From Periweissella beninensis (GTDB taxonomy: Bacteria; Bacillota; Bacilli; Lactobacillales; Lactobacillaceae), in contig NZ_JAFBDN010000008.1 in the NCBI RefSeq assembly GCF_016908275.1, positions 1 to 64,000 on the forward strand: a DNA stretch of 64,000 nucleotides, written 5' to 3'. This document shows positions 19,676 through 23,297 of this stretch, piece by piece. Positions within the stretch are counted from its first letter, which is position 1; each line of letters begins with the position of its first letter. A program made the position numbers and the translations under genes. Under the pieces are notes generated by a model. The model did no database searches. It was not told where the DNA came from and was given only the letters and a program-made list of their open reading frames with translations.

Positions 19676-19727
19676 AAAACCACCAGTATGCTAATGAAAT
19701 TAGTTTCATTAGCATACTGGTGGTTTT
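19676..19727 (+). terminator. Long perfect hairpin terminator of manLMN
   Basis: A 24-bp stem with no mismatch (left arm 19676-19699, right arm 19704-19727) encloses the 4-nt loop TTAG. It is flanked by A residues on the left and TTTT on the right, so it can act in both directions. Confidence 0.85.
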
Positions 19728-20986: not shown

Positions 20987-21060
20987 TATAATTAAAATTA
21001 ACTCAATATTAAGGTAGTTACCTGCTGATTCGGGAAACTATCTTGCCGAAAGTCAGGTGA
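20987..21060 (+). promoter_or_regulatory. relA leader with two mutually exclusive folds
   Basis: A TATAAT at 20987-20992 would start a leader of about 65 nt. Fold A pairs AAGGTAGTT (21011-21019) with AACTATCTT (21036-21044); in this fold TTCGG (21029-21033) can still pair with CCGAA (21046-21050) as an H-type pseudoknot. Fold B pairs TTACCTG (21018-21024) with CAGGTGA (21054-21060), which covers the whole ribosome binding site, and encloses the same TTCGG/CCGAA helix. A and B cannot coexist because bases 21018-21019 are shared. There is no T-run, so control would be translational. The pairings are seen in the sequence; the regulation is inferred. Confidence 0.4.
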
Positions 21061-21065
21061 AAGTA

Positions 21066-23297
21066 ATGCCAAAACAAAAAAATTTAACAGCCCAAGATGT
21101 TCATGCTGCTGTCAGTCAATATATGAATCCAGAACATGTAGCATTTGTCGATAAGGCATATGCATTTGCAGCCCGGTTGCATAAGGAACAAATTCGTAAA
21201 TCAGGGGAGCCATATATTATCCATCCAATTCAAGTAGCAGGGATTTTAGCACAGTTACATATGGATCCAGAAACAATTGTGGCAGGTTATTTACATGATG
21301 TAGTTGAAGACACTGTTGCAACTTTAGATGATCTACAAGAATTATTTGGAGCTAATGTTGCCTTAATTGTCGATGGTGTTACTAAGTTAGGGAAAATTGA
21401 ATATAAGAGTAGTCAAGAACAATTAGCAGAAAATCATCGTAAATTATTATTGGCAATGTCTAAAGATATTCGTGTAATTATTGTTAAACTAGCAGATCGT
21501 TTACATAATATGCGCACCTTACAACATCTCAGACCAGAGAAACAACGAAGAATTGCTTCAGAAACATTAGAAATTTATGCACCGCTTGCTGATCGCTTGG
21601 GAATTAGCACAATTAAGTGGGAGTTAGAGGATTCATCGTTACGTTATTTAAATCCAGAGCAATATCATCGAATTGCTCACCTTATGGATAGTCGCCGTGA
21701 GGAGCGTATGGCGTATATTAATTCAGCAATCGCTGCCATTCAAAGTGCCGTTGATGATTTAGGTTATACAAACGTAAAAATTTATGGTCGACCTAAACAT
21801 ATTTATTCTGTTTACCGAAAAATGGTTGATAAAAAAAAGCAATTTGACGAAATTTATGATTTATTAGCAATTAGAATCGAAGTTAACACGATTCCAGAAA
21901 CGTATGCAGTTCTTGGCATTATTCATTCACAGTGGACACCGATTCCAGGAAGGTTTAAAGATTATATTGCTTTACCTAAGGCTAATGGATATCAAAGTTT
22001 GCATACTACGGTTGTTGGACCAATGGGGAAACGCGTTGAAATTCAGATTAGAACTCATGAAATGCACCGAATTGCTGAGTATGGGGTAGCTGCTCATTGG
22101 GCATATAAAGAAGGTAATTTCAATGGGGCAGATGTACAAAATCAAGATCAAAAGAAGCTTAATATGATCCAAGGAATTATTGAACTACAACATGAAACTA
22201 AAGATGCCGATGATTTTATGGACGCTGTTAAAGGAGACTTATTTTCAGATCGAGTATATGCATTTACACCCAAAGGGGATGTCTATGAGTTACCAAAGGG
22301 GGCTGGTCCCCTTGATATGGCGTATATCATTCATACTGAAGTTGGCCATAAAACTACTGGAGCACGTGTTAATGGCAAGATGGTGCCTTTAAATTCAGAA
22401 TTAAAAACAGGTGATATTGTAGAAATAATAACTAGTAATACTGCTCGGCCAAGTAGGGATTGGTTTAATTTGGTTTCAACAAGACGGGCCCGTAATAAAA
22501 TAAAGCAATATTTTCGTAAACAAAATCGAGAAGAAAATATTGAGGCAGGGAAAACATTAATTATTAATTTCTTACAAGAAGAGGGTTTTGATCCAGATGA
22601 AATTTTAACTGAAGAAAATGAAAAACATGCAGTTGGTAAACTACATGTTATGGGAATTGATGATATGTTTGCTTCACTGGGCTATGGTGACTTAGCACCA
22701 CAAGGAGTTGCTAATAAGTTAACAGAAGCAAAACGGGAGCAACAAGAAAAGGATCGACTAAAGCGACAAGAAAAAGAGTTGCTTGAAGAACATAAAATAA
22801 TGGACGTTGCTAGTACATTGTCTCAAAGGAAAAAGCATACAGCTTCAGATGGAGTTATAATCGAAGGTGTTGATGGCTTACTGGTTAGATTAAGTCATTG
22901 TTGTACACCGATTCCAGGAGATAACATTGTTGGGTATATAACCAAAGGTCGTGGTGTTTCCATTCATCGGGCTGATTGTCCCAATGTACGGGATGCTGAA
23001 CGACAAGGACAACGATTAATTGATGTTGAATGGCAATTTCCAGAAGGAGAACGACCAAATTATGATGCTGATTTGACAATTAGCGGTAATAATCGGAATG
23101 GGCTACTAAATGATGTAATTAAGACCGCTAATGCTAATACTAAATATTTAATGTCCGTGAATGGGCGAGTTGATCATAATGGTTTGGTATTAATTTCATT
23201 ATCGGTGGGAGTCCGTAATTCAACTCATTTGGATCAATTGATGGCCAGTGTCAATAATATTCCAGATGTATATGATGTTAAACGAGCACTACACTAA
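21066..23297 (+). CDS. relA: Bifunctional (p)ppGpp synthetase/hydrolase RelA/SpoT
   Basis: This 743-aa Rel enzyme makes and degrades (p)ppGpp in the stringent response. The HD hydrolase domain (about 30-190) keeps HDVVEDT and [12 protein letters not shown]. The synthetase domain (about 230-350) has [14 protein letters not shown] and [21 protein letters not shown] (about 390-455), helical, zinc-finger-like ([11 protein letters not shown], with HRADCPN) and ACT domains follow. The start is ATG 21066, 5 bases after AGGTGA; the in-frame GTG at 21057 lies inside that binding site. The leader can fold to hide the site. dtd follows, as in many Firmicutes. Confidence 0.96.

Follow-up and report, generated by a model that had tools for sequence, protein, structure and literature searches.

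The relA locus and its leader

The relA gene occupies positions 21066 to 23297 on the forward strand of the window, by which we mean the whole 64,000-nt stretch of DNA analysed, and the open reading frame encodes a long RelA/SpoT homologue of 743 amino acids counted from the ATG. The product scores 797.7 bits against TIGR00691 (cut-off 499.2) and is 85% identical to RelA of P. fabalis, the closest named record. Rel enzymes both make and degrade (p)ppGpp. Translation starts at the ATG at 21066, with an in-frame GTG at 21057, and the Shine-Dalgarno (SD) sequence AGGTGA (21055–21060) is invariant in the five Periweissella leaders compared here, the SD-to-ATG spacing in Periweissella relA being 5 nt. 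Upstream, a −10 element TATAAT (20987–20992) is readable, and a transcription start near 21000 would fit it and give a leader of about 65 nt between the promoter and the ATG. The −35 element belonging to this TATAAT is weak, and a promoter scan did not include the site in its list; by eye, a TATAAT lies 18–20 nt 5′ of the hairpin described below in all five Periweissella relA leaders. A consensus scan between 20950 and 21066 returned no terminator-like site, that is, no terminator hairpin with a U-run of the kind a transcription attenuator has. Elsewhere in the window, a 20-bp inverted repeat without mismatches (19678–19725) carries T-runs on both strands, resembles a bidirectional terminator hairpin and sits between a PTS-like and a peptidase-like gene, both named by eye.

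The initial annotation had read three helices in the relA leader, and all three are present in the window sequence. Helix 1 pairs AAGGTAGTT (21011–21019) with AACTATCTT (21036–21044), helix 2 pairs TTCGG (21029–21033) with CCGAA (21046–21050), and helix 3 pairs TTACCTG (21018–21024) with CAGGTGA (21054–21060); the first and third do share positions 21018–21019, as had been claimed. The folding calculation proposed for 20995–21075 gave an SD-sequestering fold as the minimum-energy structure (−18.1 kcal/mol, z −2.20), an energy reached by 5 of 200 shuffles, and helix 2 is nested within the minimum-energy fold of the window.

On this single sequence, the three-helix layout is only mildly unusual. 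When the upstream part was shuffled 2,000 times, the switch score of the leader was reached 52 times, its longest helix was matched 57 times and its SD helix 306 times; a simple ORF caller gave 53 SD-bearing starts in the window, of which 5, 9 and 11, respectively, reach the same three measures. What makes the structure more than chance is its conservation in relatives together with compensatory changes, and this holds for the first helix only.

The hairpin in Periweissella

Helix 1, called P1 hereafter, is lengthened inward by a second short helix, P1b, in which CCTG (21021–21024) pairs with CGGG (21031–21034), and the two form one imperfect hairpin that is conserved in all five Periweissella genomes. 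Two-sided changes occur at 3 of its 13 pairs, namely alignment pairs 9/39 (A-U/G-C), 11/37 (U-A/C-G) and 13/35 (U-A/C-G), the last of which lies in P1b, and 98.5% of the helix cells are paired; the window sequence alone lacks pair 12/36. Several of these strands have a second possible use. The P1 5′ strand contains AAGG, which resembles an SD sequence, and the P1 3′ strand can serve as anti-SD strand in one alternative fold; CCTG of P1b contributes to the anti-SD strand in the other, and CGGG overlaps TTCGG of helix 2. As long as P1 stands, the GCC next to it (21045–21047) is able to pair with GGT of the SD sequence (21056–21058) in a mini-hairpin of 3 bp. This pairing appears in the RNAalifold consensus with 15 of 15 alignment cells paired and a two-sided change in none.

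The whole-structure covariation score of the Periweissella alignment was 0.225; shuffled alignments gave 0.125, with a single one of 500 scoring as high, and sliding the structure along gave no more than 0.100. Likewise, a single shuffle reached the number of changed cells, 46 reached that of two-sided pairs and all 500 that of pair types; the counts are thus not all strong, and kinship of the sequences inflates scores of this type. The five leaders represent about three lineages and not five independent samples, G056, G019 and G114 being near each other; the P. fabalis leader (L002) equals that of G019 and was left out. A DNA similarity search of 301 genomes of the family matched the leader in G056, G114 and G087 and missed G019 despite its conserved leader, the other matches being short and A+T-rich.

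The covariation check proposed for the three helices therefore has a divided outcome. The first helix shows compensatory pairs, while the letters of helices 2 and 3 are conserved with no compensatory change. For the sequestering helix TTACCTG/CAGGTGA, the first six pairs are possible in all five genomes, but the seventh is possible in one, and all of the changes are one-sided.

A similar hairpin in genus g17 and its distribution

A second genus, g17 (probably Weissella), carries a similar leader before relA: a hairpin AAGG...UCUU, then CC, then the SD sequence GAAGGGAA. Hairpin and SD are found in 19 of 19 g17 genomes, and the same order of hairpin, CC and SD precedes relA in 5 of 5 Periweissella genomes. 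AAGG is present in 16 of the 17 distinct g17 leaders and, by eye, UCUU in 13; pooling both genera gives 22 distinct leaders, of which 21 carry AAGG at the P1 base and 18 carry UCUU. The exceptions are L173, which has AAAG/UUUU and in which UUGG replaces CC-GG, and L174–L176, which have other letters for UCUU, each losing one basal P1 pair and keeping the body of the hairpin. In the alignment of 17 leaders (duplicates L183 and L185 dropped from 19), 5 of the 10 P1 pairs show two-sided change, and 94.6% of cells are paired, as against 85.0% in shuffled and at most 60.6% in slid alignments. The covariation score was 0.437, as against 0.242 in shuffled alignments, with 0 of 500 as high, and no more than 0.170 in slid ones. 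Ten of the 500 shuffles reached the number of changed pairs; none reached the alignment in any other measure. The inner P1 pairs vary freely in g17 and the loop letters are common to most of its species; the loop letters differ between g17 and Periweissella, even though P1/P1b covaries in both. At the expected 5′ end of the g17 relA mRNA (leaders L172–L190) there is also a small hairpin, TACGC...GCGT or TACGT...ACGT, which by eye seems to covary.

The region downstream of the hairpin is arranged differently in g17, where GAAGGGAA ends 25–110 nt before the relA ATG. When this gap was folded alone, it formed a single stem running from 0–5 nt after the SD to 9–14 nt before the ATG in 19 of 19 cases. 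Scored as one stem with at most 5 and 14 unpaired nucleotides on its two sides, and with one duplicate gap dropped, all 18 distinct gaps qualify, as compared with 5.45 expected from shuffles; taken singly, some of the gaps have unexceptional folding energies (z −0.78 to −5.39), and related species are not independent. When the whole leader is folded, its minimum-energy structure keeps the gap stem in 15 of 19; the stem is partly replaced in L172, L175 and L176 and wholly in L177. The g17 SD is predicted to be mostly free or held by few pairs: the pairing probability of its letters GAA does not exceed 0.5 except in one of the 19 leaders, L190, whose G reaches 0.84, and that of GGG ranges from 0.01 to 0.98. 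In G007 (L193), the one genome of genus g8, the SD-ATG gap folds like those of g17. A leader peptide between SD and relA was considered and rejected for g17, since an ATG within 5 nt downstream of the SD occurs in only 5 of 19 leaders by eye (L172, L177, L181, L184 and L185) and such a peptide is not conserved.

A hairpin-bridged SD is known from gene 38 of phage T4. In g17, too, a long spacer can be shortened by a hairpin that lies between the SD and the AUG, whereas the genus of the window has an SD-ATG spacing of 5 nt and no bridging hairpin. Genus g17 offers a natural set of apparent hairpin-bridged start sites; the available portions of PMC4611024 and PMC4347634 contain nothing on start sites of this kind.

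Covariance models built for the two genera gave strong matches only before relA. The g17 model matched 14 of 14 g17 genomes with E ≤1.7e-10 in a search of 301 genomes from 40 genera, and the Periweissella model matched 4 of 4 Periweissella genomes with E ≤9.6e-15 among 101 genomes, always at relA in either case. Strong matches thus number one per genome and are confined to Periweissella and g17. In the many-genome searches the filters kept either model from finding the other genus, so that absence elsewhere means that the element went undetected. Once the filters were off, the g17 model placed the five Periweissella leaders at ranks 1–5 of 13 matches (E 0.008 to 1.1). The reciprocal search, which covered 11 of the 19 g17 loci plus L193, found 10 of the 11 g17 leaders, seven of them at ranks 1–7 of 15 matches (E 0.004 to 0.5) and L172, L178 and L173 only at ranks 10, 12 and 14; L174 was missed, and L193 was also unmatched. 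We take the hairpins of the two genera to be homologous because they agree in position, although the individual E-values are weak (0.004 to 6.5).

The remaining matches were discarded. A stray g17-model match in G284 (E 0.0046) lies at C1:1518827, far from relA at C1:637634, and a Periweissella-model match in G065 (E 0.002) falls inside a coding stretch that looks integrase-like by eye; g17-model matches on the reverse strand of L177, L184 and L172 and at two other places were taken as hairpin palindromes or chance. The relA leaders of other genera that were inspected contain nothing alike by eye, and a search of viral contigs with one exact pattern gave no match. In the window, Rfam 15 at gathering score found only two tRNAs, and with E up to 5 or 1 the best Rfam matches for the relA leader and seven of the 19 g17 loci were far below gathering scores. 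Among the genomes searched, G027 carries a second relA copy with an internal stop (C1:1605990-1608253), and the only relA match of G318 (C1:268635-270848) has one in-frame TAG.

The leader hairpin is a real and apparently undescribed structured element before relA in two genera. Among the literature matches listed, the available text of the open-licence papers contains neither a description of a relA leader element nor an account of Rel synthesis being controlled by its own mRNA leader.

Competing folds and possible function

The SD sequence can be sequestered in all five Periweissella genomes by two partner strands, in both cases without compensatory change. One is TTACCTG of helix 3. The other is TATCT (21039–21043), which can pair with AGGTG (21055–21059) and is exclusive with P1; its core of five pairs is kept in 5 of 5 genomes and can extend up to 10 bp in G056, G019 and G114, where folding prefers the P1 3′ strand as the partner, and it shows no covariation. 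The comparative support is therefore for the hairpin and not for a switch. Of the translational switch that the initial annotation proposed, the conserved structured leader and the competition between its hairpin and SD-sequestering pairings are borne out, but the pseudoknot is not.

For transcripts ending at the AUG, the hairpin fold was calculated at −16.3 kcal/mol in the window, as against −16.6 for the sequester fold; the corresponding values are −15.3 against −14.0 for G056, −14.9 against −13.6 for G019, −14.2 against −13.1 for G114 and −23.3 against −15.2 for G087. In four of the five genomes the two folds differ by no more than 1.8 kcal/mol. Another calculation for G087 gave −25.8 versus −18.6 kcal/mol, and its hairpin is so stable that no switch is predicted there without a strong opener. 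With coding sequence included, the favoured state is predicted to differ even between the close relatives G056 and G114, and thermodynamic prediction thus does not settle the state of the leader. When the growing chain was folded, all six outer P1 pairs stayed in the minimum-energy fold until the SD emerged in 5 of 5 genomes, after which the calculated fold of the window and of G114 switches. The barrier between the folds was estimated by findpath at about 20 kcal/mol for the window, which is an upper bound; in the relatives, the barriers are 7.0–10.1 kcal/mol from the hairpin side and 5.7, 5.7, 7.9 and 2.0 kcal/mol (the last for G087) from the sequester side.

These folds suggest how the leader might operate. 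The relA mRNA would begin about 10 nt before the hairpin of P1 and P1b, which ends 10 nt before the SD. With the hairpin standing, the SD would be held by the weak 3-bp pairing only and ribosomes could start; were the hairpin opened or unformed, TATCT from the P1 3′ strand or TTACCTG could cover the SD by pairing with AGGTG(A). Since P1 is transcribed first, it should also form first, making ON the default state. A change of state might be brought about by a protein, Rel and ribosomal proteins being examples, or by a small molecule, or there may be no trigger. Our guess is a trans-acting protein, because one copy per genome, a single target gene and genus-specific loops are unlike a metabolite aptamer.

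The hairpin probably influences the amount of RelA enzyme made, and we consider the chances evenly balanced that the leader is a cis-acting translational control element. A more specific form of this reading is a cis-acting switch in which hairpin strands mimicking SD and anti-SD sequences would gate the SD, the level of Rel feeding back on itself or on the state of the ribosome, with the same element rebuilt in the sister genus around a hairpin-bridged SD; this we regard as possible but rather unlikely. Less likely than translational control in general, though a serious rival, is a purely structural role, in which the hairpin would protect the mRNA 5′ end or keep the SD clear as an insulating or standby structure, with constant relA translation. 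The predicted hairpin state of G087 and many g17 leaders, with their SD open or weakly paired, is in keeping with such a role, as are the sequester helices devoid of covariation and the basal P1 pair that L174–L176 each lose, where a switch strand would lie, while keeping the hairpin body. A plain stem, however, would not need AAGG and UCUU to be kept at the frequencies given above while the inner pairs vary, and the loop letters shared by most g17 species suggest a reader of those letters.

A control element acting through a protein would have known counterparts. Rel, like Rmf, acts on ribosomes, and ribosomal proteins have autoregulatory leaders. According to the available part of PMC2864571, the rmf motif lies in the 5′ UTR of a gene of the stringent response. 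The relA hairpin resembles the rmf motif and the ribosomal-protein leaders in being a 5′ UTR structure that is narrow in taxa and tied to one gene; it differs from the rmf motif in that gene and clade are unrelated and its protein partner is only a candidate. The whole word relA is absent from the available parts of PMC2864571 and PMC4448216.

A riboswitch class, by comparison, looks unlikely for the relA leader, since strong model matches occur only before relA and in two genera, with no credible Rfam match. Translational riboswitches with sequester and anti-sequester folds include preQ1, SAM-II and the SMK box. The relA leader resembles them in its possible exclusive helices beside the SD and in being short and near a promoter, but unlike them it has no supported pseudoknot, and its strong matches lie before one gene. 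The particular form that the initial annotation had in mind, a small translational riboswitch in which P1 and TTCGG/CCGAA make an H-type pseudoknot, is very improbable and was rejected. Although TCGG/CCGA is invariant in 5 of 5 Periweissella genomes and an exclusive SD pairing exists, a loop of one nucleotide (21045) would have to cross the 9-bp helix, which general pseudoknot geometry disfavours on steric grounds; helix 2 shows no two-sided change, its outer pair is missing in 4 of 5 genomes, and its CGG is used by the covarying P1b. Least credible of all is an RNA thermometer whose SD would open on warming. The mostly paired SD predicted for the window at 37 °C and the predicted decrease of SD pairing in G087 (0.72 at 15 °C, 0.44 at 50 °C) would suit it, but in the window predicted SD pairing increases with temperature (0.78 at 15 °C, 0.96 at 50 °C), and in G056, G019 and G114 it is nearly flat.

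The reading of the leader as a translational control element is directly testable in food-grade bacteria, as the relA leader is only about 70 nt long and can be placed upstream of a reporter by cloning. Lastly, the relA leader of a Lactobacillaceae bacterium (L018, 2940–3000) has, by eye, CCCCTTGGAAGTAGGGG followed by the SD sequence AAGGGG, and its first strand could pair with either copy.
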